From: Crenalkalicoccus roseus
Lineage (GTDB): Bacteria; Pseudomonadota; Alphaproteobacteria; Acetobacterales; Acetobacteraceae
Assembly (NCBI RefSeq): GCF_004761865.1
Contig: NZ_SJDM01000005.1
Coordinates: 124,001-188,000 of the forward strand
Length of the DNA: 64,000 nt
Direction of reading: 5' to 3'
Below, piece after piece: positions 47,792 through 63,019 of this stretch. The first letter of the stretch is position 1, and the number at the start of each line of letters is the position of its first letter. The translations under genes and the position numbers were made by a program. A model generated the notes under the pieces. The model searched no databases. It was given only the letters and a program-made list of their open reading frames with translations, and was not told the origin of the DNA.

Positions 47792-48524
47792 AGAACCGCA
47801 GATCCAGCCAGGAGAGGTGCCCGCCCTTGCCGGCGCCGGTGTCGAGGAACACGGCGCGGCCGCCGAGCGCGCCCCGCTCCACGAAGGGCCTGCCGTCCGT
47901 GGAGCGGCAGTCATGGCCGCAATGGACGGTCACGCCGGCCGGGATGCGGTTCACCCAGCCGTAGAGCCGCTCCGGATAGCCGTCCGGCCGCATGCGGCTG
48001 GTCACCTGGCCGAACAGGGCGCGGGAGAGCAGCGGGTCCGGGCGCCGCGCCCCGGCATCGGGCGGCGGCGGCTCGTGCAGCATGCGCGGGTGCCAGCCGG
48101 CATGCACGAAGCACCAGGCGTCGAGGCGCAGCCAGGCTGGCGCCGCGGCGACCTCGGCCAGCAGCCGCGCCTTCAGCGCCGCGCCGTCCGGCGCCGCCTC
48201 GAGCTGGGCGAGGGTGGCGCCAAGCCCCTCGGCGGCGATGCGCACCCGCTGCCCGGAGAGGACGCGGCGCAGCTTGTGGTCGTGGTTGCCGAGCAGGAAG
48301 CGGCCCTGGCCGCGGTCCAGCACCCCGAACATCAGGCGCAGCACGCCCGGGCTGTCCGGGCCGTAATCGGTGAGGTCGCCGAGCTGGAGCAGGAACAGCC
48401 GCTCCGCCTCCGCCCCCGCCACGGCATGGGCGAAGGCGGCGGCCTCGCCATGCACGTCGCCCACCACGCGCAGCCCGGCGAAGCCGCGGCGGGCCAGCGC
48501 CTCGGCCCCGGAGGGAAGGTTCAT
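47790..48524 (-). CDS. Metallophosphoesterase, serine/threonine phosphatase-like
   Basis: A 244-aa calcineurin-like phosphoesterase. Metal ligands are visible in VVGDVHGE, LGDLTDYGPDS, GNHDHKL, and the late VHAGWHPRML and HCGHDCRSTDG segments. This is the layout of diadenosine-tetraphosphatase/PrpA-type bacterial phosphatases. Its ATG overlaps the photolyase stop by 3-4 bp (ATGA), so it is translationally coupled behind the photolyase, on the same strand. Function in repair is possible only by association. Confidence 0.87.
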   Translation of the reverse strand: MNLPSGAEALARRGFAGLRVVGDVHGEAAAFAHAVAGAEAERLFLLQLGDLTDYGPDSPGVLRLMFGVLDRGQGRFLLGNHDHKLRRVLSGQRVRIAAEGLGATLAQLEAAPDGAALKARLLAEVAAAPAWLRLDAWCFVHAGWHPRMLHEPPPPDAGARRPDPLLSRALFGQVTSRMRPDGYPERLYGWVNRIPAGVTVHCGHDCRSTDGRPFVERGALGGRAVFLDTGAGKGGHLSWLDLRF

Positions 48525-49963
48525 GCGGCGTCGTCCTCCGCCACCTCGCGCAGCGTGGCCAGGGCGCGCCGCCGCGCCGCCGCGTGCTCCACCACCGGGC
48601 GCGGATAGTCGCGGCCGAGCGCGAGGCCGGCCTGCCGCAGCACCGCCTCCGGCGCCTCCCAGGGGCGGTGCAGGTAGCGGTCGGGCAGGCGGGCGAGTTC
48701 GGGCACGAAGCGGCGGACGTAGCGGCCGGCCGGGTCGAACCGCTCGCCCTGCAGCACCGGGTTGAACACGCGGAAATACGGCGCCGCGTCGGTGCCGCAG
48801 CCCGCCACCCACTGCCAGGAGGCGCTGTTGGAGGCGAGGTCGGCGTCCACCAGCGTGTCCCAGAACCACGCCGCCCCGTCCTGCCAGGGCTGCAGCAGGT
48901 GCTTCACCAGGAAGGAGGCGGCGATCATGCGCACCCGGTTGTGCATCCAGCCGAGGCGCCAGAGCTGGCGCATCCCCGCATCCACGATCGGGTAGCCGGT
49001 GCGCCCGCGCCGCCAAGCGCGCAGCAGCGCCGGGTCGCGCGCCCAGGGGAAGGCAGCGAAGCGCGGGCGCAGCGGCGCCTCGGGCATCTCCGGCCGGTGC
49101 CAGAGCAGGTGGTAGGAGAATTCCCGCCACAGCAGCTCGGCCAGGAAGGGCCGCGCCGCGGCGCGGTCGCCGCCGAGGGCCGCCAGCGCCGCGTGCCAGA
49201 CCTGCGCCGGCGAGACCTCGCCCCAGCGGAGGTGCGGCGAAAGGCCGGAGGTGCCCTCGGTGCCGGGATTGTTCCGCGCCGCGCCGTAGTCCCGCAGCGG
49301 CCCGGCGAGGAAGCGGGCGAGGCGCGCCTGCGCCCCCGCCTCGCCGGGCGTCCAGAGGGCGGGGAACTCGGCCGCCCAGTCGGGCTGCGGCGGGGTGGGC
49401 AGCAGGCCGAGCGCGGCGAGCGGCTCTCCCTCCGGCGCCTCCGGAACGGGGCGCAGCCGCTCCGGCGCGGGCAGGGGCGGGGGCGGGTCGCCCAGCGCGG
49501 CGACGGCGCGGGCGAAGGGGGTGTAGATGGCGTAGGGCCGGCCGCTGCCGCTCCGGACCTGCTCCGGCTCCCGCAGCAGGGCGCCGGGGAGCAGGACGAG
49601 CCGCCGGCCTTCGGCGCGCAGCGCCGCGGCGAGGCGCTCGTCGCGCGCCCGCGCCCAGGGCTCGTACAGCCGCCCCGCCAGCACCTCCGCCGCGCCGGTC
49701 CGGGCGGCGAGGGCGGGGAGCAGCGCCTCCGCCCGGCCGCGCAGCAGCAGGAGCGGCGCCCCGCGCGCCGCCAGCGCCGCGCCGAGCGCCGCCAGGCTGT
49801 GGTGCAGCCACCAGCGCGCGGCACCGCCGGGTGCCCAGCGCCCCGCCGCCGCCTCGTCGAGCACGAAGACCGGCAGTACCGGGCGGTGTCCGGCCGCGGC
49901 GAGGATCGGGTTGTCGGCGAGCCGCAGATCCTGGCGGAACCAGAGCAGGGCGGGAGCGTCCAT
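48521..49963 (-). CDS. phrB: Deoxyribodipyrimidine photolyase
   Basis: A 480-aa class I cyclobutane pyrimidine dimer photolyase using FAD and light. LLWFRQDLRLADNP is the N-terminal antenna domain, and the FAD domain contains YGAARNNPGTEGTSGLSPHLRWGEVSP, FSYHLLWHRPEMPE, TGYPIVDAGMRQL and LVDADLASNSASWQWVAGCGTDAAPYFR, the photolyase fingerprint. A start nine bases upstream (49972) would add three residues; neither has a good Shine-Dalgarno. Complete. Confidence 0.95.
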   Translation of the reverse strand: MDAPALLWFRQDLRLADNPILAAAGHRPVLPVFVLDEAAAGRWAPGGAARWWLHHSLAALGAALAARGAPLLLLRGRAEALLPALAARTGAAEVLAGRLYEPWARARDERLAAALRAEGRRLVLLPGALLREPEQVRSGSGRPYAIYTPFARAVAALGDPPPPLPAPERLRPVPEAPEGEPLAALGLLPTPPQPDWAAEFPALWTPGEAGAQARLARFLAGPLRDYGAARNNPGTEGTSGLSPHLRWGEVSPAQVWHAALAALGGDRAAARPFLAELLWREFSYHLLWHRPEMPEAPLRPRFAAFPWARDPALLRAWRRGRTGYPIVDAGMRQLWRLGWMHNRVRMIAASFLVKHLLQPWQDGAAWFWDTLVDADLASNSASWQWVAGCGTDAAPYFRVFNPVLQGERFDPAGRYVRRFVPELARLPDRYLHRPWEAPEAVLRQAGLALGRDYPRPVVEHAAARRRALATLREVAEDDAA

Positions 49964-50044: not shown

Positions 50045-50587
50045 ATGCGCGGGGGTCGAACGGCGGGTTCGTCCCTGATCCTCGTCGCCGCGCTGCTCGC
50101 CGCCCTGCTGCCGCGGCCGGCGGCAGGGGCGACGGTGCTGGAGGTGCTGGCGGCGGATGGCCGCTTCGGCCGCTTCCTCGAACTCGCGCAGCGTGCCGGC
50201 ATGGAGGAGCGTCTGCGCCAGCCGGGGCCGCTGACCATCTTCGCCCCGACCGACGCCGCCTTCGCCGAGGTGCTCGCCGCCCGCGCCAGGGCCCCCGGCC
50301 GCGCCGAGGCGGCGCCCTGGCCGGATGCCGAGGCGCTGCGTGCCCTGATCGGCGCCCACATCGTCTCCGGCAAGGCGCTGCGCCTCGCGGACCTGGACGG
50401 GGAGGGGCAGGAGCTGCGCAGCGAGGGGGAGGCCGTGCTGCGCCTCCGCCCCGCCTCGCGCGCCTCGGCGCTGGTCACCGCCGCCGCGGCCGGCCCCTGG
50501 GAAGGGCGGACGGCGCGGATCGTGGAGCCCGACATCGTGGCCGCGAACGGCGTCATCCATGCGATAGACGGGCTGATGCTGCGCTGA
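50045..50587 (+). CDS. Fasciclin domain protein, secreted
   Basis: A 180-aa protein with a signal peptide (SLILVAALLAALLPRPAAG) and one fasciclin/FAS1 domain: GPLTIFAPTDAAFAEVL is the FAS1 H1-type motif and VAANGVIHAIDGLML the H2-type motif. FAS1 proteins mediate adhesion or are periplasmic stress proteins, and small bacterial ones have no assigned chemistry. GGAAGGAG (50031-50038) precedes the ATG. It is divergent from the photolyase and convergent with PdeM. Confidence 0.88.
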   Translation: MRGGRTAGSSLILVAALLAALLPRPAAGATVLEVLAADGRFGRFLELAQRAGMEERLRQPGPLTIFAPTDAAFAEVLAARARAPGRAEAAPWPDAEALRALIGAHIVSGKALRLADLDGEGQELRSEGEAVLRLRPASRASALVTAAAAGPWEGRTARIVEPDIVAANGVIHAIDGLMLR

Positions 50588-50605: not shown

Positions 50606-51292
50606 TCACCCCGTCGCCGCGCGGCGCGCTGCGGGCATGGCGAACAGCCGCTCCCGCCCGAGCAGGAAGGCGCGGCCGCCGCGCGGGAACAGCCGTGCCA
50701 GCGCCGGGTCGGCGATGTCGAGTCCGCCCGCATAGGCGCCGAAGGCCGGCAGCACCAGGCGCCGCCCGTCGGTGAGGAAGCAGGGGCGGGTGATGCCGCC
50801 GCAGCGCGTCGGCATGGTCGCCTTCGGGTGGAAGTGGCCGGAGACCTCGGCGCCGGCCACCGGACCGGGCCGCGCCTCGTGGCGGAACACCACCGGCCCC
50901 TCCGCCCATTCCGCCGCCGCCTCGCCGGGCAGGCCGACGGGGGGCGCGGGGTCGTGGTTGCCGAGCACCCAGACCGTCTCGACCCCCTCCAGCATCCGCC
51001 GCAGCAGCGCGGCATCCCCGGGCGCGAGGCGCGCCGCGCCCGCCGCGTCGTGGAAGGAATCGCCGAGCGCGACCAGCCGCGCCGGGCGCCAGCGGCGCAG
51101 CACGGGCAGCAGGCGAAGCAGCGTCTCCCGCGTGTCGTAGGGCGGCACCGGCCGGCCGGCGCGGGCGAGGGCGCTGCCCTTCTCAAGGTGCAGGTCGGCC
51201 ACCGCGAGCAGCCGCCGCGCCGGCCAGGCGAGGGCGCCGGCGGGGTCGAGCATCAGCCGCTCGCCGGCGAGGTGCAGCGGCGCCGGGATCAT
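50606..51292 (-). CDS. pdeM: Ligase-associated DNA damage response endonuclease PdeM
   Basis: A 228-aa metallophosphoesterase of the PdeM/MPE family, a manganese-dependent single-strand DNA endonuclease found beside Lhr-type helicase, exonuclease and ligase. Ligands are in VADLHLEKGSA, ALGDSFHD, LGNHDPAPP and SGHFHPKAT. It overlaps the helicase stop by 4 bp (ATGA), so it is co-translated with the helicase. The Exo and ligase genes are 6.5 kb away on the other strand, which is not the usual arrangement. Confidence 0.93.
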   Translation of the reverse strand: MIPAPLHLAGERLMLDPAGALAWPARRLLAVADLHLEKGSALARAGRPVPPYDTRETLLRLLPVLRRWRPARLVALGDSFHDAAGAARLAPGDAALLRRMLEGVETVWVLGNHDPAPPVGLPGEAAAEWAEGPVVFRHEARPGPVAGAEVSGHFHPKATMPTRCGGITRPCFLTDGRRLVLPAFGAYAGGLDIADPALARLFPRGGRAFLLGRERLFAMPAARRAATG

Positions 51293-53829
51293 GCGCCGGC
51301 GAGGCCGCGCGGGGCGCGACGGGGAGGGCGGCGGCCCCGCCGCGGCCGGTCCACCACGCCGGCGCGGATGCGCACGCCCTCGGTCACCTCGGCCAGGGTC
51401 TCGGCGAAGAGTTCCGCGCCCTCCGTCGCCTCCCCGACCAGCGCCGCCGCCTCGGCGAGCAGCGCGTCCTCGGCGCCGCCGGCGACCCATTCGCGCCCCT
51501 CCTCGATCAGCGCCGGCACCGCGAGCGGCGAGACGCGGTCGAGCCGCAGGTGGCGGATGCGCCCCCTGGCGCGGGCCAGCACCAGCGCGATGCGGGAGAC
51601 GTCGGTCAGCCCCGCCGCAGCCTCCTGGCGGGTGGCGCGCAGCAGCACGTGGTCCGGCTCATGCCGGCGCAGCACGTCGTAGATCAGGTCGGCGTTCATC
51701 GTCATCTGGCGGCCGGACTTCTCCTGCCCGGGGTGGTGCTTCTCGATCAGCCCGGCGATGGTGGCGATGTTGCGGAAGGTGCGGCGGAGCATGGAGCTCT
51801 CCGCCATCCACTCCTCCAGCTCCTCGCCGAGGATGTCCTCCTCGAACAGCGGCGCGACCTCGGTCGGCTCGAAGGCCGACCAGGCGGCGAGGACGTAGTC
51901 GGTGGCGAGGTAGCCGAGCGGGCCGTAGCCGAGCCTCTCCATGCGCCTCGTCACCAGCATGCCGAGCGTCTGGTGCGCGAGCCGCCCCTCGAAGCAGTAG
52001 GCGACCAGGAACCAGCGCCCGCCGCGCGGGAAGCTCTCCACCAGCAGCCCGTCCTTCTCCGGCAGGGCGGAGCGGCGCTGTTGCAGGCGCAGCCACTCGC
52101 GCACCGGCGCCGGCAGCGCGCCCCATCGCGCCGGGTCGTGCAGGATGGCGCGCACCCGCGCGGCGAGGAAGGTGGAGAGCGGCATCCGGCTGCCGGCATA
52201 GGCGGGCACGCGCGGCTCCCCCTCGCCGCCGCGGGAGACGAGGGCGGTGAGGGCATCGAGCGCCTCGAAGCGCAGGAGCTGGCCGGCGAAGAGGAAGCAG
52301 TCGCCGGGCTGGAGGGTGGAGACGAACCACTCCTCCACCTCGCCGAGCACCGGCCCGCCGCGCAGCCGCACCTTCACCATCGGCGTCTCGACGATGGTGC
52401 CGAGATTCAGGCGGAGCTGCCGCGCCACGCGCGCATCGCGCACATGCACGAGGCCCTCGGCGTCGCGGAACAGGCGGCGGAATCGGGCGTAGCCGCGGAG
52501 CGCGTAGCCCCCGTCCTCGACGAAGCGCAGCACGTCGTCGAAGTCGCGGCGGGAGAGGCCGGCATAGGGCGCGGCGCGCGTCACCTCGGCGTAGAGCGCG
52601 TCGGGGCGGAAGGGGGCGTGGCAGGCCATGGCGAGGACGTGCTGCGCCAGCACGTCGAGCCCGCCCGGGCGCGGCGGGTCGCCGTCGAGCTCCCCGGCCG
52701 CGACCGCCTCGAGCGCCGCGGCGCATTCCACCACCTCGAAGCGGTTGGCCGGCACCAGCACGGCGCGGGAGGGCTCCTCCATGCGGTGGTTGGCGCGGCC
52801 CACCCGCTGCAGCAGCCGCGCCACCCCCTTCGGCGCGCCGACCTGGATCACCTGGTCCACGTCGCCCCAGTCTATGCCGAGATCGAGCGAGGCGGTGGCG
52901 ACCACGGCGCGGAGCCGCCCGGCGGCCATCGCCGCCTCCACCTTGCGGCGCTGCTCGACGGTGAGGCTGCCGTGATGCAGCGCGATCGGCAGGTTGTCCT
53001 CGTTCAGCCGCCACAGCGCCTGGAACACCAGCTCCGCCTGGGCGCGGGTGTTGACGAAGACGATGGTGACCCGCGCCTCGCGGATGCGGCGGTAGATCCC
53101 GGGCGCCGAGGCGAGGCCCATATGGCCGCCCCAGGGCAGGTGCCCCTCCGGCAGCATCACCGCGATCTCGGGGGCGGCGCCGCCCGCGGCCTCGATCAGC
53201 CGCACCGCCTCCGGCCGGCCGGTCGGCGAGAGGAAGGCGCGCAGCGGCGCGGGATGCGCCACGGTGGCGGAGAGGCCGATGCGCCGCGCCCCTGGCGCCA
53301 GCGTCGCCAGGCGCGACAGGCCGAGGGCGAGCTGGTCGCCGCGCTTGGTGCCGGCGAGGGCGTGGATCTCGTCCACCACCACGGCGCCGAGGCCGGCGAA
53401 GAGCGCCCCGGCCTCGGGCAGGGAGAGCAGCAGCGCGAGGCTCTCCGGCGTGGTGAGCAGGATGTCGGGCGGGTTCTCGCGCTGCCGGGCGCGGCGGTTG
53501 GCCGGCGTGTCGCCGGTGCGGGTCTCGATGCGGACGGGAAGGCCCATCTCCGCCACCGGCGCGGCGAGGTTGCGCGCCACGTCCACCGCCAGCGCCTTCA
53601 GCGGCGAGACGTAGAGGGTGTGCAGCGCGCCCCGCCCCGTCTCCGGCCGCGCCGCCAGCGCAACGAGGCTCGGCAGGAAGCCGGCGAGGGTCTTGCCGCC
53701 GCCGGTCGGGGCGACCAGCAGCGCCGAGGCGCCCGCCGCCGCCGCCTCCAGCACGGCGATCTGGTGCGGCCGCGGCGTCCATCCCCGGCGGGCGAACCAG
53801 GCGGCGAAGGGTTCCGGCAATGTTCCCAT
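51289..53829 (-). CDS. Ligase-associated DNA damage response DEXH-box helicase (Lhr-Core type)
   Basis: An 846-aa Lhr-Core superfamily 2 helicase. LVAPTGGGKTLAGFLPSL is Walker A, VVVDEIHALAG motif II, and VFVNTRAQAELVFQAL with QRVGRANHR are motifs IV-VI. The C-terminal winged-helix and Lhr-specific domains follow. It is an ATP-dependent 3'-5' translocase acting with nuclease and ligase partners in DNA repair. The start MGTLPEPFAAWFARRGW at 53829 is the usual family N-terminus. A GTTC-N7-GTTC element overlaps codons 2-6. Confidence 0.95.
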   Translation of the reverse strand: MGTLPEPFAAWFARRGWTPRPHQIAVLEAAAAGASALLVAPTGGGKTLAGFLPSLVALAARPETGRGALHTLYVSPLKALAVDVARNLAAPVAEMGLPVRIETRTGDTPANRRARQRENPPDILLTTPESLALLLSLPEAGALFAGLGAVVVDEIHALAGTKRGDQLALGLSRLATLAPGARRIGLSATVAHPAPLRAFLSPTGRPEAVRLIEAAGGAAPEIAVMLPEGHLPWGGHMGLASAPGIYRRIREARVTIVFVNTRAQAELVFQALWRLNEDNLPIALHHGSLTVEQRRKVEAAMAAGRLRAVVATASLDLGIDWGDVDQVIQVGAPKGVARLLQRVGRANHRMEEPSRAVLVPANRFEVVECAAALEAVAAGELDGDPPRPGGLDVLAQHVLAMACHAPFRPDALYAEVTRAAPYAGLSRRDFDDVLRFVEDGGYALRGYARFRRLFRDAEGLVHVRDARVARQLRLNLGTIVETPMVKVRLRGGPVLGEVEEWFVSTLQPGDCFLFAGQLLRFEALDALTALVSRGGEGEPRVPAYAGSRMPLSTFLAARVRAILHDPARWGALPAPVREWLRLQQRRSALPEKDGLLVESFPRGGRWFLVAYCFEGRLAHQTLGMLVTRRMERLGYGPLGYLATDYVLAAWSAFEPTEVAPLFEEDILGEELEEWMAESSMLRRTFRNIATIAGLIEKHHPGQEKSGRQMTMNADLIYDVLRRHEPDHVLLRATRQEAAAGLTDVSRIALVLARARGRIRHLRLDRVSPLAVPALIEEGREWVAGGAEDALLAEAAALVGEATEGAELFAETLAEVTEGVRIRAGVVDRPRRGRRPPRRAPRGLAGA
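53811..53825. promoter_or_regulatory. Candidate LexA box, GTTC-N7-GTTC
   Basis: GTTC (53811-53814), seven bases, GTTC (53822-53825): the direct-repeat form known for alphaproteobacterial LexA sites. It lies just inside the helicase coding sequence, downstream of a promoter-like pair that would give an almost leaderless transcript. Experimental support is absent. Confidence 0.45.
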
Positions 53830-53840
53830 GGGCGGCGGGG

Positions 53841-53869
53841 ACTATGGCGGGGGAAGGCCGCTGCGGGAA
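53841..53869 (-). promoter_or_regulatory. Candidate promoter of helicase-pdeM operon
   Basis: Minus strand: weak TTCCCG (-35, 53869-53864), 17 bp, CATAGT (-10, 53846-53841). Transcription would begin a few bases before the ATG at 53829, putting the LexA-like site at about +5 to +20. Confidence 0.3.
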
Positions 53870-53882
53870 GCGAGGCGCGGCC

Positions 53883-56483
53883 TCAGCCCCGCTGCGGGAG
53901 CGGCAGCTTCACCACCCTGGCGCCCTGCCTGGGGCCGAGGGCGCGGGCGATGGCGGCGGCCAGATCCTCCTGGCGGTAGGGCTTGGCGAGGCGGGGGAAT
54001 TCCGCCGCCGCCTCCCCGGGCAGGTCGGCATAGCCGGTCACGATCACCACCGGCAGCGCCGGGTACCGCTCGCGGATGCGGCGCGCCAGGTCGAGACCGT
54101 TCATCCCCGGCATGGCGTAGTCGGTCAGCACCAGCTCCACCGGCCCGGCGGCGAGCGCCTCCAGCGCCGCGAGGCCGCTGCCGGCGAGGCGGACATCGTG
54201 GCCGAGATCCTCGAGCATCGCCGCCGTGCCGGCCTGGATCAGCGGGTCGTCGTCCACCAGCAGGATGGTGCGGCGCCCGGCGGGCGGGGGCGGGGACTCG
54301 GCAGCGGGGCCCGGCGGCGGCCCGGCCGACGTGGCGGCCTCCGCCACCGGCAGCCACAGCGCCACCGTGGTGCCGCGGCCGGGCTCGCTCTCGATCACCA
54401 GCCTGCCGCCCGACTGCGCCGCCAGCCCGTGCACCATCGACAGGCCGAGGCCCGAGCCCTTGCCCGGCCCCTTGGTGGTGAAGAAGGGCTCGGTCGCCCG
54501 CTTCAGGGTCTCGGCGTCCATGCCGGTGCCGCTGTCGGCGACCGAGAGGCGGACGAAGCGGCCGCGGGGCAGGCCCTCCGGGCGCTCCACGCCGGGGGCG
54601 TCGCCGTCGCGCGCCTCGATCAGCAGCGAGCCGCCCATGGGCATGGCGTCGCGCGCGTTCACGGCGAGGTTCAGCAGCGCCATCTCGAGCTGGTTCGCAT
54701 CCGCGCGCACCGGTGGCAGGCCGGGCGGGATGTCCACCGCGATACGGATGGCGGGGCCAAGGGAGCGGCGCAGCAGCTCGGTCATGCCGCGCACCAGGGC
54801 GCCGAGCTCGATCGCCTGCGGCCGCAGCTCCTGGCGGCGGGCGAAGGCGAGCAGGCGCTGGGTCAGCGCCGCGCCGCGCTCGGCCCCCTGCACCGCGCCC
54901 TCGAGCAGGCGGCGCAGGCGCGGGTCGTCGGGCAGGCGCTTGCGCAGCAGGCCGAGGTTGCCGAGCACCGCCATCAGCAGGTTGTTGAAATCATGCGCCA
55001 CGCCGCCGGTGAGCTGGCCGAGCGTCTCCAGCTTCTGCGCCTCGTGGAGCTGCGCCTGCGCCGCCTTCAGCTCGCTGATGTCGCGCCCCTCGGCGACCAG
55101 CAGCACCACCGCCCCCGTCTCGTCGCGCAGCGGCTTGAGCGAGAAGTCGAGCGTCGCGGCGCGGCCGCCGGCACCGCGCGCCTCGGTCTCGTAGCGCACG
55201 AAGGCGCCCTGGGCGGCGCGGCGGATCGCCTCCTCCAGCCGGGCCCGCGCCGCCTCGTCGCCGCCCTCCCACCAGGGCGCCGCGGCGAAGGGGCGGCCGA
55301 TCACCGCCTCCGGGGCGAGGCCGGCGAAGGCGAGCGCGGTCTCGTTCGCCTCGAGCAGCGTGCCGTCGGGGGAGAGCAGACCGATGAATTGGAATTGCGC
55401 GTTGAAGATGCCGCGGAACCGCGCCTCCTTCTCGCGGAGCCGCCGGTTCGCCTCGGCCAGCGCCGCGGTCCGCTCCGCCACCCGGGCCTCCAGCGCGCCG
55501 CGGGCCTGGCGTAGCGCCGCGTTGGCGGCGGCGAGCTCGGCCAGGGTCCGCTCCTCCCGCCGGCTCAGCGCGCCGGCGACCCAGGCGAGGCCGCCGAGCG
55601 CCACCAGCACGAAGCCGCCGAGCCAGAGGGACCAGACGAGGTCGCGGCGGAACGGCACCAGGGCGCTCTCCACCGGCACGCTGACGGTGGCGATCGCCGG
55701 CCGGCCCTCCAGCGGGCGGAAGGCGACGAGGCGGTCCCGCCCCTCCCGCGCGCCGAGGCGGAGGGCGCCGGCCTGCCCGGCCAGGGCGCGCTCCAGCACC
55801 TCCGGCGCCAGGGAGATCCGCCCGATCTGCTCCGGCGTCAGGCCGGTGCGCGCGATGACGCGCCCCTCCGGCGTCCAGAGGCCGAGATTGGCCCCGCGCA
55901 CCGTCTCGGTGCCGAGCGCCAAGTCCTGGAAGAAGCCGGGGCGCAGGGCGATCTGCACCACGCCCTCGAGCGCGCCGCCGGCGCCGTGGAGCGCGCGGCT
56001 GTAGGTGGAGAGCACGTCGCGGGTGAGGCGGCTGACCAGGGCCTCGCCGATGTGGCGCTCCGCGCCCTCGACATGGGCGCGGAACCAGGGCCGGTCGGCG
56101 AGCGGCGTCTCCGGCGCCGGATGGGCCTCGCTGAGCGCCACCGGCACCCCGTTCGGGTCCACCACCAGGATGTAGCCGCCGGGCAGGCGGCTGGCGAGGC
56201 GGCGCAGCCAGCGGAACGCCTCCTCGTCGCCGCGCAGCGCCATGACGCCGCCGCGGCGCGCGATCCCCTCCACGACCTGGTCTATGACCAGGTCGCCGGT
56301 GTCGAGAATGCGGTGGGCGTGCTCCTCGACAATGCGCGCGAGATCGCGCGCCGAGGCCTCCGCCCAGCGCAGCGCCGAGCGGTGCTCCGACCACAGCGCG
56401 AGGCCGCGCAGGCCGAGATTGGTCACGGCCAGGAGGGCGACGATCAGGTAGACGAGATGGCGGACACGCCGGATGCCGGACAT
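53883..56483 (-). CDS. Hybrid sensor histidine kinase/response regulator
   Basis: An 866-aa membrane kinase. TM1 is at about residues 9-28 and TM2 at about 290-312, enclosing a periplasmic dCache-like sensor domain. A coiled-coil linker, a PAS domain (FRGIFNAQFQFIGLLSPDGTLLEANE), HisKA with H497 (GGVAHDFNNLL), HATPase_c (NLAVNARDAM, DSGTGMD, GSGLGLSMVHGL) and a C-terminal REC with D788 (LVLTDYAMPGMNG) follow. No HTH output partner is adjacent. It lies between the two halves of the repair module, on the same strand as the helicase, 53 bp upstream of it. Confidence 0.93.
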   Translation of the reverse strand: MSGIRRVRHLVYLIVALLAVTNLGLRGLALWSEHRSALRWAEASARDLARIVEEHAHRILDTGDLVIDQVVEGIARRGGVMALRGDEEAFRWLRRLASRLPGGYILVVDPNGVPVALSEAHPAPETPLADRPWFRAHVEGAERHIGEALVSRLTRDVLSTYSRALHGAGGALEGVVQIALRPGFFQDLALGTETVRGANLGLWTPEGRVIARTGLTPEQIGRISLAPEVLERALAGQAGALRLGAREGRDRLVAFRPLEGRPAIATVSVPVESALVPFRRDLVWSLWLGGFVLVALGGLAWVAGALSRREERTLAELAAANAALRQARGALEARVAERTAALAEANRRLREKEARFRGIFNAQFQFIGLLSPDGTLLEANETALAFAGLAPEAVIGRPFAAAPWWEGGDEAARARLEEAIRRAAQGAFVRYETEARGAGGRAATLDFSLKPLRDETGAVVLLVAEGRDISELKAAQAQLHEAQKLETLGQLTGGVAHDFNNLLMAVLGNLGLLRKRLPDDPRLRRLLEGAVQGAERGAALTQRLLAFARRQELRPQAIELGALVRGMTELLRRSLGPAIRIAVDIPPGLPPVRADANQLEMALLNLAVNARDAMPMGGSLLIEARDGDAPGVERPEGLPRGRFVRLSVADSGTGMDAETLKRATEPFFTTKGPGKGSGLGLSMVHGLAAQSGGRLVIESEPGRGTTVALWLPVAEAATSAGPPPGPAAESPPPPAGRRTILLVDDDPLIQAGTAAMLEDLGHDVRLAGSGLAALEALAAGPVELVLTDYAMPGMNGLDLARRIRERYPALPVVIVTGYADLPGEAAAEFPRLAKPYRQEDLAAAIARALGPRQGARVVKLPLPQRG

Positions 56484-56621
56484 GCGCCTGCGCCTCCCTG
56501 TCTCCGGGCTGCGCGATATGCGGGAGGAAGGGCGGCCGTGGCAGGGGCCCCGCCCGGCCCGCCGGTCAAGGCTTCGTGACGAAGGCGGATGCGTTCGGGT
56601 CGCATCGCGGGGCGGAGCGCC

Positions 56622-57656
56622 TCAGCCGCGGCGGAAGGCCAGCACGGCGCGGGTTCCGCTTCCGGCCGGCTCCATCCGCAGCCGGGCCTTGGCCTGCCGG
56701 GCGAGGCGGGGCACCAGGTTGAGCCCGAGGCGGTGCCTCGGCACCTGCTGGCGGACCGAGTCGGGCAGGCCGACGCCGTCATCCTCGACCACGATCTCCC
56801 CCTCGCCGGGCGCCGTCATGCGCAGGGCGAGCAGGATCCGCCCCGGCCGGCCCCAGGGGAAGGCGTGCTGGCAGGCGTTCACCACCAGCTCGTTCACGAT
56901 CAGCGCCAGAGGGGTCGCCTGCGCCACCGGCACCATCACGCCGGGCTCGAGCCGCTCCTCCAGCCGGATGCCCGGCCGCCCTGCCGTCTCGACCGCGAGC
57001 CGCGCGGTGGCCGAGAGTTCGGGGCCAAGCTCCACGCCGGCATCGCCGCAGACGCGGAACATGCGGTCCTGCACGTGGCTCGCCAGCATCACCCGCGTCG
57101 CCGCCGCGCGCAGGGCCTGTGCCACCGCCGGGTCGCTCGCCCGTCCGGCCTGCAGGGTGAGGAAGGAGGTGGTCGCCTGGGTGTTGTTCTTCACGCGGTG
57201 GTGCAGCTCGGCGAGCAGCGCCTCCCGCTCCGCCAGCATGCGGTGCCGCTCCTCCAGCGCCTGCTTCATCTCGGTGACGTCCACGCAGGAGCCGAAATAG
57301 CCGGCGAAGGCGCCGTTCACCTCATAGGGGCGGCCGTTGTCCAGCACCCAGCGCCAGGCGCCGTCATGCCGGCGCAGGCGGTAGTCCATGGTGAAGGGGC
57401 GGCGCGCCTCGAAGGCCGCGGCGTAGGTCGCGAGGCAGCGGTCGAGGTCCTCGGGGTGCACCCCCTCGGTCCAGCCGAAGCCGAGCTCCTGCTCCAAGCT
57501 GCGGCCGGTGAAGTCGAGCCAGGGCTTGTTGAAGAAGTCGCAGCCCCGGCTGCGGTCGGCGCGCCAGATCATCACCGGCGCGTTGTCGGCCAGCAGGCGG
57601 AACTGGTCGCCGGTCACGCCGGCGAGCGCTACGGATCTGTCCTCGCTTCCCGCCAT
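56622..57656 (-). CDS. PAS-domain sensor histidine kinase, HWE/HisKA_2 type
   Basis: A 344-aa soluble kinase from the ATG at 57656; an ATG at 57701 and a TTG at 57716 would extend it. A PAS domain with a PAC segment (FRLLADNAPVMIWRADRS; DYRLRRHDGAWRWVL) is followed by the HisKA_2 box LHHRVKNNTQ with phospho-acceptor H153, and a HATPase domain (NELVVNACQHAF, EIVVEDDGVGLP). There is no receiver or transmembrane domain. HWE kinases often sense light or general stress in Alphaproteobacteria. No response regulator gene is nearby. Confidence 0.9.
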   Translation of the reverse strand: MAGSEDRSVALAGVTGDQFRLLADNAPVMIWRADRSRGCDFFNKPWLDFTGRSLEQELGFGWTEGVHPEDLDRCLATYAAAFEARRPFTMDYRLRRHDGAWRWVLDNGRPYEVNGAFAGYFGSCVDVTEMKQALEERHRMLAEREALLAELHHRVKNNTQATTSFLTLQAGRASDPAVAQALRAAATRVMLASHVQDRMFRVCGDAGVELGPELSATARLAVETAGRPGIRLEERLEPGVMVPVAQATPLALIVNELVVNACQHAFPWGRPGRILLALRMTAPGEGEIVVEDDGVGLPDSVRQQVPRHRLGLNLVPRLARQAKARLRMEPAGSGTRAVLAFRRG

Positions 57657-57718
57657 CCTGACGCCAAGCCCTTGAACCGCCACGCTGTTGCGAGGCTGCA
57701 TACGCCTGACGCGCAAGC

Positions 57719-57734
57719 GGGGAACAGGTTCCCC
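57719..57734. promoter_or_regulatory. Perfect 16-bp dyad upstream of exonuclease-ligase operon
   Basis: GGGGAACAGGTTCCCC is a perfect palindrome 70 bp before the exonuclease ATG and 19 bp upstream of a TTGACC -35 candidate. It has GAAC/GTTC half-sites with a 2-bp gap, not the alphaproteobacterial LexA spacing. Confidence 0.4.
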
Positions 57735-57752
57735 ACCCTTCGGTGGAGTCGC

Positions 57753-57781
57753 TTGACCGCACCCGCCCCCGCCTCACCTAA
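57753..57781 (+). promoter_or_regulatory. Candidate promoter of exonuclease-ligase operon
   Basis: TTGACC (57753-57758), 17 bp, ACCTAA (57776-57781). The -35 is good and the -10 weak; the start ATG is 23 bp further. Confidence 0.3.
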
Positions 57782-57803
57782 CCACGGGGACGCAAGGAGA
57801 GCC

Positions 57804-58850
57804 ATGCCACCGCATCCCGAAACCTGGCTGCGGGTGACGCCAGAGGGGCTGTTCTGCGTCCCGGGCGGCTTCCACATAGATCCCCTCCGGCCGGTCGCGC
57901 GGGCGGTGATCACCCATGGCCATGCCGATCATGCGCGGCCCGACCACGGCGCGGTGCTGGCGACGCCGGAGACGCTGGCGGTGATGCGCACCCGGCTGGG
58001 GGCGGCGCGGGCCGGGGCCTCGCAGCAGCCGCTGCGGCCGGGGGAGGCGCTGACCGAGCGCGGGGTGCGGCTGTGGCTGCGCCCGGCGGGCCACATCCTG
58101 GGCTCGGCCCAGATCTGCCTGGAATGGCGGGGCAGCCGGGTGGTCGTCTCCGGCGACTACAAGCGCCAGCCGGACCCGACCTGCGCCCCCTTCGAGCCGC
58201 AGCCCTGCGACGTCTTCGTCACCGAGGCCACCTTCGCCCTGCCGGTGTTCCGCCACCCGCCGCCGGAGCGGGAGGCGGCGAAGCTGCTGCACAGCCTCGC
58301 CCTGTTCCCGGAGCGGACGCATGTGGTCGGCTGCTACGCGCTCGGGAAGTGCCAGCGGCTGATCCGGCTGCTGCGCGCCGCCGGCTGGGACCGCCCCATC
58401 CACCTGCACGGCGCGCTGCTCGGGCTGTGCCGGCTGTACGAGGAGCTCGGCGTCGCGCTCGGCCCGCTGCTGCCGGCGACGGCGGCGGATCGGGCGGCGC
58501 TGCGCGGCGCCATCGTGCTGGCCCCGCCCTCGGCGGTGGCCGACCGCTGGGCGCGGCGCCTGGCCGAGCCGGTGGTGGCGCTGGCCAGCGGCTGGATGCG
58601 GGTGCGCCAGCGCGCCAAGTCCCGCGGCGTGGAGCTGCCGCTCGTCGTCAGCGACCATGCCGACTGGGACGGGCTGCTGGCGACGATCGTCGAGGTCGGG
58701 GCGCCGGAGGTGTGGGTGACGCACGGGCGCGACGACGCGCTGGTGCACGCCCTCGGCCAGCGCGGCATCCGCGGCCGGGCGCTGCACCTGGTCGGCCTTG
58801 GCGAGGAGGATGAGGGGCCTGAGGCGGCGCCGGCCGCGGACGCGGCATGA
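57804..58850 (+). CDS. Ligase-associated DNA damage response exonuclease (MBL fold)
   Basis: A 348-aa metallo-beta-lactamase/beta-CASP-type nuclease. The metal motif is VITHGHADHARPDHGAV, further ligands are in GHILGS and SGDYK, and SDHADWDGLL is the late motif. It belongs to the Exo component of the Lhr/MPE/Exo/Ligase repair cluster. AAGGAGA (57794-57800) supports the ATG at 57804. It overlaps the ligase start by 4 bp (ATGA). Confidence 0.92.
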   Translation: MPPHPETWLRVTPEGLFCVPGGFHIDPLRPVARAVITHGHADHARPDHGAVLATPETLAVMRTRLGAARAGASQQPLRPGEALTERGVRLWLRPAGHILGSAQICLEWRGSRVVVSGDYKRQPDPTCAPFEPQPCDVFVTEATFALPVFRHPPPEREAAKLLHSLALFPERTHVVGCYALGKCQRLIRLLRAAGWDRPIHLHGALLGLCRLYEELGVALGPLLPATAADRAALRGAIVLAPPSAVADRWARRLAEPVVALASGWMRVRQRAKSRGVELPLVVSDHADWDGLLATIVEVGAPEVWVTHGRDDALVHALGQRGIRGRALHLVGLGEEDEGPEAAPAADAA

Positions 58851-60457
58851 GCCTGCCCGCCTTCGCCGCGCTGCTGGAGCGCCTGGTCTTCACCCCCGGG
58901 CGCAACGCCAAGCTTGCCCTGCTGCGCGACTGGTTCGCCACCCAGCCCGACCCGGACCGCGGCGTCGGCCTCGCCGCCCTGACCGGGGAGCTGGCCTTCA
59001 CCGCCGCCAAGCCCGCCCTGGTGCGCGACCTGGTGGCGGCGCGCACCGACCCGGTGCTGCTCGCCCTCAGCCACGACTATGTGGGCGACTTCGCCGAGAC
59101 GGTGGCGCTGATCTGGCCGGAGAGGGAGGGGGCGAACGCCCCGCCGCCCGGCTTGGCGGAGGTGGCGGAGGCGCTGGAGCTGACGCCGAAGGCAGGCCTG
59201 CCGGCGCTGATCGCGGGCTGGCTCGACACCCTGGATGCGGGCGGGCGGCTGGCGCTGATCAAGCTGGTGACCGGGGGGCTGCGCGTCGGCGCCGCGGCGC
59301 GCCTCGCCCGCACCGCCCTCGCCGAATGGTCGGGGAAGCCCGTGGAGGCGATCGAGGAGGTGTGGCACGGCGTGGCGCCGCCCTACCTGCCGCTCTTCGC
59401 TTGGCTCGAGGGGCGCGGGCCGCGGCCGGATCCGCGCGGCGCCCCGGTGTTCCGGCCGCTGATGCTGGCACACCCGCTGGACGACGCCGAGGTGGCCGCC
59501 CTCGACCCCGCCGAGTGGCGGGCGGAGTGGAAGTGGGACGGCATCCGGGTGCAGCTCGCCGCCGGGCCGGGCGGGCGGCGGATCTGGAGCCGCGGCGGGG
59601 AGGACGTCTCCGCCGCCTTCCCCGAGATCCTGGAGGCGATGGCGTTCCACGCCGTGCTCGACGGCGAGCTCTTGGTGATCCGGGACGGGGCGGTGGCGCC
59701 CTTCGCCGATCTGCAGCAGCGGCTGAACCGCAAGCTGGTCCCGGCGCGGCTGCGACGCGACGTCCCGGTGGGGGTGCGGCTCTACGACCTGCTGTTCGAG
59801 GGGGAGGAGGATCTCCGCCCGCTGCCCTTCGATGCGCGGCGCCGGCGGCTGGAGGCGTGGGCGGCGCGGGCGCGGCCGGCGCGCATGGACCTCTCCCCGC
59901 AGATCGCCTTCGCTTCCTTCGCGCAGCTCGCGGCGATCCGCTCCGGGGCGCGCGCCGCCTCGATCGAGGGGCTGATGCTGAAGCGCGCCGACAGCCCCTA
60001 TGTCGCGGGGCGGGTGAAGGGGCTGTGGTGGAAGTGGAAGCGCGACCCGCTCTCCATCGACGCCGTGCTGATGTACGCCCAGCGCGGCCACGGCAGGCGG
60101 TCGAGCTTCTACAGCGACTACACCTTCGGCCTGTGGCGCCCGGACGGGCGGGGGGGCGAGGAGCTGGTGCCGGTGGGCAAGGCCTATTCCGGCTACACGG
60201 ACCAGGAGCTGGCCTGGCTCGACCGCTGGATCCGCGCCCACACCATCGCCCGCTTCGGCCCGGTGCGGGAGGTGGAGAAGACCCTGGTGCTGGAGGTGAT
60301 CTTCGACGCGGCGCAGCGCAGCACCCGGCACAAATCGGGCGTGGCGCTGCGCTTCCCGCGCATCGCCCGCATCCGCACCGACAAGCCAGCGGGCGAGGCG
60401 GACCGGCTGGAGAACCTGCTGGCCTATGTGGAGGACCGGCCGTCCGACGATGCCTGA
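58847..60457 (+). CDS. ATP-dependent DNA ligase, cisplatin/Lhr-cluster type
   Basis: A 536-aa ATP-dependent ligase. K229 in the KWDG motif (EWKWDGIRVQ) is the adenylated Lys; WSRGGEDVSAAFPEI is motif III-like region, EGLMLKRADSPYVAGRVKGLWWKWKR contains motifs IV-V, and the N-terminal 190 residues form the helical DNA-binding domain. It seals nicks after the paired nuclease/helicase. It is coupled to the exonuclease gene. No LigD polymerase or Ku genes were seen, so this is not an NHEJ system. Confidence 0.94.
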   Translation: MSLPAFAALLERLVFTPGRNAKLALLRDWFATQPDPDRGVGLAALTGELAFTAAKPALVRDLVAARTDPVLLALSHDYVGDFAETVALIWPEREGANAPPPGLAEVAEALELTPKAGLPALIAGWLDTLDAGGRLALIKLVTGGLRVGAAARLARTALAEWSGKPVEAIEEVWHGVAPPYLPLFAWLEGRGPRPDPRGAPVFRPLMLAHPLDDAEVAALDPAEWRAEWKWDGIRVQLAAGPGGRRIWSRGGEDVSAAFPEILEAMAFHAVLDGELLVIRDGAVAPFADLQQRLNRKLVPARLRRDVPVGVRLYDLLFEGEEDLRPLPFDARRRRLEAWAARARPARMDLSPQIAFASFAQLAAIRSGARAASIEGLMLKRADSPYVAGRVKGLWWKWKRDPLSIDAVLMYAQRGHGRRSSFYSDYTFGLWRPDGRGGEELVPVGKAYSGYTDQELAWLDRWIRAHTIARFGPVREVEKTLVLEVIFDAAQRSTRHKSGVALRFPRIARIRTDKPAGEADRLENLLAYVEDRPSDDA

Positions 60458-60712: not shown

Positions 60713-63019
60713 TTACCTCGCGTCGCGTTCCTTCTCAAGCCGCGCCATCATGCCGCGAGCGACGGCCTGCAGCGGATGCTCGGCCTGGCCGAGAAGGCTC
60801 GCCTGGGCCGAGGAGGCGCCGTTGCCGCGCGGCCCCTCGCGCAGGGTATGGATCGCCGCCTCCAGCGCCCGCTCGGTCGTAGCCGTCAGCGCCTGCCGGT
60901 CCCAGGAGGAGACCCGGCCGCCGGCCAGGCGGTTCATCAGGATGGTGGCCGCGGTCACCGCGTAGAGGGCCCGCTCCTTCTCCCGCTCCCGCGGATCGCG
61001 CAGGATGTTCGTGAAGCAGGCCATGTCGAGACCGATCAGCAGCAGCGCCTGCTCCTGATCCTCGGCCGTGGCGTCCTCGGGCCTGACGTAGCGCCGGTGC
61101 CGCATGTTCAGGTGCGCCTGCAGCCAGCCGGCGTAGGAGGAGACCATCGCCTGGCGCCAGCGGTTGGCGGGCAGGTCACAGGCCCGCTCGGGGCCGGAGG
61201 TCCATTCGGGCAGGGAGGCCCGCTGCCCGGCGGCGCCGAGCACCTGATGGAAGCGCAGGATCAGTCCCCTGAGGCCGCTTTCCGTCACCGGCACGGCGGC
61301 GGCGGTGCCTTCCGAGGATTCCTGGATGTAGAGGATCTCCTGATAGACGTAGAGCTGGTGCCACAGCCAGGCCGCCCGCAGCGCCTCCCGGTCCGGCGCG
61401 TCGGCCACCGGCCCGCCCTGCGCGGCGGCCTGCGCGACCAGGGTCTGGGGGGAGGGGCGCTCCGGTTCCGGGGGGCGGTCCAGCGCCTCCACCAGCCTGG
61501 CGAGGTCGTCGAGCCATTCCGCGAGCAGGCGGAACGAGGCCTCGTGGTCGCCGAGGCTGGCCAGCGCCATCGCCGCAAGCAGCGAGAGGTAGGGGCTGAA
61601 GCCGGTGGTGCCGAGGCTGGCCTCGGAGGCGAATTCCTCCACCACGAAGCGGGCGAGCCGCTCCACCTCCGCCTCCCCGAGGGGCTGGCACCGGGTATCC
61701 TCCCGGTCCTGCCACTGGCCGAGCAGCCAGGGGTGCTGGAAGCCGCGCGCCCATCTCACGACCTCGTTGTGGGCCCTGAACAGCTCGCGGACGAGGTAGC
61801 GCAGCACCTCGGCCATGTCGTGCCGGTCCCCCGCGCCGCCCGCGGCCGGGACCACGACGCCCGAGGGCTGCCGCAGCGCCCGGCGCGCCGCCTCCGCGCC
61901 GGGATGCCCGCGCAGGCGGTCCAGCATCACCTGGTGCTCCAGCCGGGACCAGTACTTGGCCAGCCGGGTCAGGTACTCCACCGCCTTGGTGGAGCGGTAC
62001 TCCAGCAGGGCCCGCTCCCCGGTATTGGCGACGAAGGCGTTCAGGCAGGCGATGGCGGGCGCCATGCTCGCCAGCATCCCCTCCTGCGCGCCGCCGAGAG
62101 GGGCGAGGCGCGCCGCCTGCCCCCGCACGGTGCCGGCGACCTGCTCGGCCGCCATCGCGGACGGCACGACCCGCGCCCCCGGCGCGGCGCGGCCGGCCGG
62201 CTGGCCGAGTTCCTGGATGGTCTGCGCCAGCAGCAGGTGGATGATCGTGGCCCGGTCGCGCTCCACCTGGTGCACCCTGGCCTTCGCCTGCGGCGCCCCG
62301 GTCCTCGCCTGCTGTACGCCCGCGGACGGCGAGGTCGGCTCCGCCGCGAAATGGGTGGTGAGCAGCGTCTCCGGCCCGCTCTCCGGCGGCGGGGGGTGCG
62401 TCAGGCTGCGCATCCGGTGCAGGCGGTGGGGCACGAAGCCGTTGCGGTCGGCGGTGAGCTTGCCGGTGGGGTCGGCGAAGGTGGTGGCCTGGCGGATCGC
62501 CTCGGCGGTGCGGTCCCCGGCCGCGCTGCCCAGGGTGACGCCGATGCCGGCGGGCATGCTGAAGCCGGTGACGCGGGCGAGGAACGGCCGCCATTCCGTC
62601 ACCGGGAACAGCCCCGCCACCACCAGCACCGCGAGCGCCAGGCCGCCCGCCCCCTCCTTCGCGGCGCGCAGCAGCTCCGCCGTCGTGCGGGGCGGGGGGG
62701 CGTCGCGGTCCTTTCCGCGGGCAGCAGGGGCGCCGGCCTGCGCGGCCCGCTCCGCGCCGCGCTGCTGGTCGGCGAGCAGGTAGCCGATCAGGGCGCCGAT
62801 GAGGGCGGCGTCGAGCGGCACGTCGATCAGGAAGGCGCTGATCCGCCGGTTGACCCACCCCGCGCCGAGGAGAGCGTGAGCCAGGATCGCGGCCGCGAAG
62901 AGCAGCAGGACCAGCGGCAGGAGGCGCGACAGGGTGCCGCGGCGGAGGCAGCGCTCCTGCGCCATCAGCGCCGAGTAGCTCGCGAACAGGCCGAGGCAGA
63001 GGCAGATGGCGCGGAACAT
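60713..63019 (-). CDS. Large membrane protein of unknown function (768 aa)
   Basis: A 768-aa protein whose N-terminal 145 residues hold about four hydrophobic segments (about 3-19, 32-54, 62-83, 124-143). The remaining 620 residues look soluble and largely helical, with acidic/basic mixtures and no recognised catalytic motif. I do not recognise a family, and no Walker, kinase, hydrolase or HTH motif was noticed. AGGAGGG (63027-63033) is seven bases before the ATG, inside a hairpin. It is divergent from methionine aminopeptidase; the ligase gene ends convergently. Confidence 0.75.
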   Translation of the reverse strand: MFRAICLCLGLFASYSALMAQERCLRRGTLSRLLPLVLLLFAAAILAHALLGAGWVNRRISAFLIDVPLDAALIGALIGYLLADQQRGAERAAQAGAPAARGKDRDAPPPRTTAELLRAAKEGAGGLALAVLVVAGLFPVTEWRPFLARVTGFSMPAGIGVTLGSAAGDRTAEAIRQATTFADPTGKLTADRNGFVPHRLHRMRSLTHPPPPESGPETLLTTHFAAEPTSPSAGVQQARTGAPQAKARVHQVERDRATIIHLLLAQTIQELGQPAGRAAPGARVVPSAMAAEQVAGTVRGQAARLAPLGGAQEGMLASMAPAIACLNAFVANTGERALLEYRSTKAVEYLTRLAKYWSRLEHQVMLDRLRGHPGAEAARRALRQPSGVVVPAAGGAGDRHDMAEVLRYLVRELFRAHNEVVRWARGFQHPWLLGQWQDREDTRCQPLGEAEVERLARFVVEEFASEASLGTTGFSPYLSLLAAMALASLGDHEASFRLLAEWLDDLARLVEALDRPPEPERPSPQTLVAQAAAQGGPVADAPDREALRAAWLWHQLYVYQEILYIQESSEGTAAAVPVTESGLRGLILRFHQVLGAAGQRASLPEWTSGPERACDLPANRWRQAMVSSYAGWLQAHLNMRHRRYVRPEDATAEDQEQALLLIGLDMACFTNILRDPREREKERALYAVTAATILMNRLAGGRVSSWDRQALTATTERALEAAIHTLREGPRGNGASSAQASLLGQAEHPLQAVARGMMARLEKERDAR

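Follow-up and report, generated by a model that had tools for sequence, protein, structure and literature searches.

The 64,000-nucleotide stretch of Crenalkalicoccus roseus analyzed here (contig NZ_SJDM01000005.1; hereafter the window) carries at positions 50606-60457 a DNA-repair set together with two sensor kinase genes. The genes for the nuclease PdeM (pdeM), the helicase Lhr-Core (lhr), a hybrid histidine kinase and a PAS-HisKA_2 histidine kinase (HKpas) follow one another on the minus strand, and the genes for a ligase-associated exonuclease (exo) and an ATP-dependent DNA ligase (lig) follow on the plus strand (Table 1). The central feature of this locus is a LexA-type box in the first codons of lhr that is conserved in most lhr genes of the family and points to SOS control of the helicase-nuclease half. 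All four repair families score above the curated cut-offs of their NCBIfam models within 10 kb, and the lhr gene is the sole match over the cut-off of TIGR04121 in the host genome. An original prediction, made from the sequence alone, of PdeM and Lhr on one strand, exonuclease and ligase on the other and two kinases in between is thereby borne out by the NCBIfam and Pfam matches.

Gene coordinates were refined, and lhr starts were chosen by script. The start codon of pdeM (51292) overlaps the lhr stop codon in the sequence ATGA. The end of the hybrid kinase gene is 53 bp upstream of the lhr start, that of the PAS kinase gene 138 bp upstream of the hybrid kinase start, and the starts of the PAS kinase gene (57656) and exo (57804) are 147 bp apart. 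The set is not contiguous in the window, as two kinase genes stand between lhr and exo, and Pfam and NCBIfam searches found no response regulator with an output (DNA-binding) domain among the six genes.

Table 1. Genes and elements of the repair locus and its neighborhood, in window coordinates
Feature	Position	Strand	Support or remark
PdeM, ligase-associated nuclease	50606..51292	-	NCBIfam TIGR04123, 211 bits (cut-off 150)
Lhr-Core helicase	51289..53829	-	NCBIfam TIGR04121, 1116 bits (cut-off 850)
Hybrid histidine kinase: dCache-like sensor, PAS, HisKA, HATPase, receiver	53883..56483	-	Pfam
PAS-HisKA_2-HATPase histidine kinase (HKpas)	56622..57656	-	Pfam
Ligase-associated exonuclease (Exo), metallo-beta-lactamase fold family	57804..58850	+	TIGR04122, 448 bits (cut-off 325); Lactamase_B match
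ATP-dependent DNA ligase, member of the repair set	58847..60457	+	TIGR04120, 799 bits (cut-off 400)
LexA-type box GTTC-N7-GTTC	53811..53825	+	minus-strand GAAC-N7-GAAC in lhr codons 2-6
Putative lhr core promoter CTTCCC-N18-CATAGT	53841..53870	-	wholly within the gap between hybrid kinase gene and lhr
Photolyase/cryptochrome, candidate start	48521..49963	-	Pfam/NCBIfam
Fasciclin-domain gene between photolyase and pdeM	about 50045-50587	+	opposite strand to both

Divergent lhr and exo across the family

A search of 249 genomes of the C. roseus family gave Exo matches (TIGR04122, E values up to 1e-40) in 166 of them and Lhr matches (TIGR04121, E values up to 1e-100) in 180. Gene pairs were compared among the best 150 Exo matches and the best 150 Lhr matches, so that pair counts are lower bounds: at least 128 genomes hold both genes, at least 92 of them on the same contig and at least 36 on different contigs, some of these perhaps owing to fragmented assemblies. 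In all 92 same-contig genomes among the matches listed, lhr and exo are divergent, with a gap between the two matches of 58-218 bp in 41, of 516-11122 bp in 47 (the window included) and larger in 4. Divergent transcription of lhr and exo is the family's normal layout, with or without kinases. The split described in the original prediction is real insofar as the kinases lie between the halves; the further idea that inserted kinases explain the opposite transcription of the two halves is corrected by this distribution.

The locus comparison covered the window and 60 of the 88 loci linked within 12 kb, namely all 46 other enlarged (large-gap) loci and 14 of the 41 compact (short-gap) loci; 20 further loci were picked by hand. 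These genomes form a natural series of compact, enlarged and kinase-bearing loci and of genomes with lhr elsewhere.

The LexA-type box in lhr and its genomic context

An exact GTTC-N7-GTTC occurs once in the window, at the lhr start. Shuffled windows hold 0.40 on average and at least one in 29 of 100, and uniqueness in the window is by itself weak evidence; conservation is not. The box is present at the start of 42 of 61 lhr genes of the family (window included), against 0.29 expected when synonymous codons are resampled from each gene's own usage, and in all 13 further lhr genes, giving 55 of 74. Ten of these 13 come from genomes in which lhr lies on a contig other than that of exo (G062, G137, G185, G003, G204, G161, G106) or more than 100 kb away from it (G016, G101, G235). 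The box is likewise found in the window and in all 13 of the other enlarged loci that bear a kinase, and is kept with or without kinases across the family.

The codons that make up the box are highly constrained. In the 55 box-bearing genes Thr is encoded by ACA in every case (background 2.6%), Glu by GAA in every case (23%) and Leu by TTG or TTA in 54 (5.8%), while residue 2 is either Gly or Arg, always with an nGA codon, although GGA accounts for 2.6% of Gly codons. As residue 2 varies while its GA bases stay, and rare codons are fixed, it is the DNA and not the peptide alone that is conserved. The GAAC-N7-GAAC element might instead be kept for the peptide or for the start of translation, since it sits in coding sequence at the start codon, and AT-rich codons near the start can favour initiation. 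Against this stand the same codon patterns, together with the fit of the element to the operator pattern found at lexA and uvrA/ssb, and we regard such an explanation as quite improbable.

For Caulobacter, GTTCN7GTTC has been published as the LexA motif (PMC12700426), and lhr of Myxococcus xanthus is reported to be under negative regulation by LexA (PMC12288472). A single LexA match (166 bits, cut-off 111) was found in the genome of C. roseus, and a box precedes it by 83 bp. Further boxes stand in the uvrA/ssb interval and a short way upstream of the parE match. In total, the genome has 43 exact boxes compared with 16 for the reversed pattern, and the surrounding sequence was covered for 30 of the 43 sites. 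One other box neighbors a stretch of rpoC, and others lie near nusG, a radical-SAM gene or a recombinase-like gene.

A putative core promoter upstream of lhr fits within the short space between the hybrid kinase gene and lhr. An element at near-constant position, CTTNMN-N16/19-CATA or variants of its second part, occurs in 39 of the 55 box-bearing loci against 0.31 in shuffles, and 26 of the 55 still match when the pattern is tightened to end in CATA, against 0.04 expected; the patterns were composed after viewing the alignment, which makes these figures optimistic. If the promoter-like element is used, transcription would start near the lhr ATG.

On the exonuclease side the picture differs between compact and enlarged loci. 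Of the 14 compact loci, the ten with the lhr box, and no others, have a box within 300 bp upstream of exo (reversed pattern, 0/14). Of the 46 enlarged loci two have one (reversed pattern, 1/46), and one of these two (L018) carries the PAS kinase. In seven loci with exo apart from lhr no box lies upstream of exo; the ligase gene of one contains a match. Once separated from lhr, exo-lig thus mostly lacks an exact operator close by.

From the layout, the box, its conservation and the kinase distribution, all read from the sequence, we infer that the repair set of this family consists of two divergent units, lhr-pdeM and exo-lig, of which the former would carry its own SOS control: a LexA-type operator in codons 2-6, preceded by a short core promoter close to the ATG. 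LexA would bind at the lhr start and repress lhr-pdeM, and DNA damage would induce the unit by de-repression. In compact loci the box, within about 120 bp of exo, could serve both sides. In the lineage of the window, the PAS kinase gene and, in some genomes, the hybrid kinase gene would have been inserted between exo and the lhr promoter. The promoter-like element and operator are intact downstream of the insert, and lhr-pdeM would still be de-repressed upon LexA cleavage, while exo-lig, having lost the nearby operator, probably relies on a separate promoter beside the PAS kinase gene. We consider it likely that lhr-pdeM forms an SOS unit transcribed from a promoter of its own, downstream of the kinase genes, and that exo-lig is uncoupled from it.

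Several observations weigh against this reading. The box is missing from 19 of the 74 family lhr genes and from the lhr start of all 29 alphaproteobacterial lhr genes outside the family (L213 being cut near the start), a comparison that covered 29 of the 51 other genomes with an Lhr match. The family genomes share ancestry, and the 55 box-bearing genes are not 55 independent events. The core-promoter pattern is absent from 16 of the 55 box-bearing loci, and a scan of 53700-57900 for the E. coli consensus promoter found nothing. Many of the 43 genomic boxes are likely chance occurrences, given the 16 in the reversed control: 15 sites were looked at and 20 flanking open reading frames (ORFs) at 11-12 sites scanned, most without a repair gene, and 13 of the 20 ORFs belong to no named family, as expected for chance matches or shadow frames.

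A separate observation comes from an alphaproteobacterium of another family (L211), in which a LexA-type box lies 101 bp upstream of lhr, not inside it, possibly an independent SOS link. Our literature search, judged on titles and the beginnings of abstracts and with subscription papers mostly outside it, found no description of a LexA box in lhr of this group, and the words helicase, lhr and ligase are absent from PMC12700426 and PMC13384398.

The kinase genes in the gap

An orthologue of HKpas is present in 19 of the 249 family genomes, spanning 7 genera (E values up to 1e-55); at most 8 candidates per genome were scored for HKpas and at most 3 for the hybrid kinase, and carriers may be missed. 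In all 19 carriers HKpas lies within about 2.5 kb of exo and is divergent from it, an adjacency beyond chance. On its other side lhr follows in 16, and in the remaining three (G062, G137, G185) lhr is on another contig and HKpas is still beside exo, with no lhr following it in the stretch examined. HKpas occupies the gap in 13 of the 46 other enlarged loci, each time on the lhr strand, and in none of the 14 compact loci. Its phospho-acceptor and ATP-site motifs are invariant in all 19 orthologues, and the ratio of nonsynonymous to synonymous substitution rates (dN/dS) is 0.23-0.48 in 11 pairs by the NG86 method and 0.03-0.17 by YN00 in the 4 of the 11 pairs that gave values. Three weaker second matches (45-56%) lie elsewhere, in line with Belnapia matches of 52% (L103, L106) that are not beside the repair genes.

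A wider list of HKpas relatives, comprising 80 loci, is rich in distant PAS proteins and may omit genomes near that of the window, and the count of linked orthologues was therefore taken from the 249-genome search. Only one of the 80 loci also has lhr, pdeM and exo, namely that of Siccirubricoccus sp. G192 (L092; Acetobacterales, placed in Roseomonadaceae by the NCBI taxonomy), which shows the same layout as the window; L145 has a weak ligase match. In a FastTree tree of Lhr, Exo and Lig from 70 genomes, built from the module's own genes, all HKpas carriers fall into one 23-genome clade (98*) with three changes, and four members of this clade (G034, G046, G176, G089) are without the kinase and keep the repair genes. 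Such a distribution fits one insertion followed by losses and would also fit a few gains. The linkage of HKpas to exo is strong, yet explicable by descent from one insertion, because all carriers share one clade.

The HKpas/exo intergenic region also holds a perfect 16-bp palindrome, GGGGAAC-AG-GTTCCCC (57719-57734), with 7-bp arms and a 2-bp center. It was considered as an operator and rejected, since inspection by eye, without a count, did not show it upstream in relatives; the site was also examined by eye as a possible sigma-EcfG element, and this reading too was dropped.

The hybrid kinase has a different distribution. Its dCache match is below threshold (25.8 bits, cut-off 45; 51.7 in the L177 homologue), and it was matched in 26 of the 249 family genomes (E values up to 1e-120), mostly over the kinase half alone. 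Full-length matches of 57-59% neighbor the PAS kinase gene in two genomes (G160, G203) and, at the edge of a contig, lhr in a third (G237). In G151 and G094 the full-length matches, of 53-54%, do not share a contig with exo. In G087 (L004:6294-7808) the protein is reduced to its dCache-PAS sensor half of 504 amino acids, the kinase and receiver parts being missing. Because it is patchy, located elsewhere in two genomes and reduced to a sensor half in a third, the hybrid kinase is not a fixed part of the repair set. Of the two kinases, HKpas alone shows a lasting link to the repair genes: its orthologue was found nowhere without them, weaker second matches aside, whereas full-length matches to the hybrid kinase do lie elsewhere, which counts against the original prediction for that kinase.

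These patterns can be accounted for if insertions between lhr and exo are simply tolerated and the two kinases are passengers whose functions have nothing to do with repair, an explanation that is compatible with SOS control of lhr and that we hold to be slightly more probable than its opposite. The enlarged gaps in 47 of the 92 listed linked genomes carry varied cargo. A Pfam scan of 20 ORFs, picked by hand from mechanically called gap ORFs that may include shadow frames, matched 11 and left 9 without a match; the matches comprise an enolase-type enzyme, glycosyltransferases and PIN-domain proteins (two of each), a peptidase C58-like protein, Hint, an acetamidase-type and a GST-like protein, a dihydrolipoamide-type oxidoreductase and DUF1206. 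The patchiness and truncation of the hybrid kinase agree with a passenger role. The position of HKpas beside exo in every carrier, three of them with lhr elsewhere, is more than free cargo would predict, a point that common descent weakens. Among the gap ORFs, three close genomes (L038, L039, L040) have ORFs of 225-248 amino acids, and the one tested (L038:3190-3936) gave a weak match to the peptidase C58 family (33 bits, cut-off 23).

Alternatively, the PAS kinase could be a dedicated sensor of the repair set, mainly for exo-lig, that reads an intracellular signal through its PAS domain and phosphorylates either a response regulator from another locus or the hybrid kinase's receiver, thereby setting exo-lig expression and replacing the lost LexA link. 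This would again be compatible with LexA control of lhr, and the constant, divergent position beside exo across seven genera, its persistence where lhr is on another contig, the invariant catalytic motifs and the NG86 dN/dS values all speak for it. A single insertion kept by descent within one clade suffices to explain the same data, however, four members of that clade keep the repair genes without the kinase, none of the six genes encodes a response regulator with an output domain, and neighborhood alone is no proof of control; we think a dedicated sensor unlikely. A still bolder combination is a shade more doubtful: the LexA operator in the first lhr codons, partly fixing the N-terminus of the protein, would stay through insertions and moves, while a kinase captured once took over exo-lig, leaving two regulators. 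If true, one repair set would be divided between SOS (helicase and PdeM) and a PAS-kinase pathway (exonuclease and ligase).

The kinases are unlikely to act as a switch for the helicase half, because lhr carries its own LexA-type box in its first codons; for the damage control that the original prediction suggested for the kinases, the conserved box is the better candidate on that side. A role of both kinases as damage or light sensors that govern the two halves of the set is very improbable: they lie between the halves and a photolyase match occurs near the module in 33 of 60 relatives' loci (partial matches included), but the promoter-like element and the LexA-type box of lhr are downstream of both kinases, divergence also occurs without kinases, hybrid-kinase matches occur elsewhere, the plus-strand fasciclin-domain gene sets the photolyase gene apart from pdeM, and no LOV family match exceeds its cut-off. 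Light sensing in particular found no support. HKpas has a partial match of 44 bits to the LOV kinase family NF052306, whose cut-off is 450, and the flavin-binding cysteine motif of LOV kinases was not seen by eye in the kinase sequences. The photolyase gene was also considered as a member of the lhr operon and ruled out by the plus-strand fasciclin-domain gene that parts it from pdeM.

Beside the ligase gene, a 768-amino-acid ORF on the minus strand (60713-63019) has no Pfam or NCBIfam match and may be a real protein or a shadow frame.

Comparison with known systems

The Lhr-Core/MPE(PdeM)/Exo/Lig gene cluster has reportedly been studied in Pseudomonas putida by Ejaz and Shuman. The locus in the window resembles this cluster in having all four families above cut-off and in the overlap of its helicase and nuclease genes, and differs from it in the two divergent units, the two kinase genes between them and the LexA-type box inside lhr. 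Of 319 bacterial genomes, 276 are reported to have MPE close to the Lhr-core gene (PMC8301817).

In relation to two-component systems, a conserved phospho-acceptor and ATP site are found in all 19 HKpas orthologues, and the hybrid kinase has the corresponding Pfam domains, whereas a DNA-binding response regulator is not found among the six genes. HKpas shares the PAS-HisKA_2-HATPase layout of the HisKA_2-type sensor kinases, PhyK-like proteins among them, with a partial PhyK match of 61 bits; it falls far below the PhyK cut-off of 750, and no PhyR-like partner is present among the six genes.

Compared with the alphaproteobacterial LexA/SOS regulon, the sequence features of a target are all found: an operator at the lhr start, a LexA in the genome, and an operator of the same pattern at the known SOS genes, lexA, uvrA/ssb and parE among its sites. 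The difference is that the lhr operator would lie inside the coding start, a place seen in this family only (0 of 29 lhr genes outside it). A conserved operator of this kind would permit a direct test in cultivable relatives of whether the helicase-nuclease half is an SOS unit and whether exo-lig is co-expressed with it. The gene set and the kind of operator are thus known already, while three things seem to be new within the literature searched: an operator embedded where lhr coding begins, the way it has persisted as the locus was rearranged, and the PAS kinase linked to exo.

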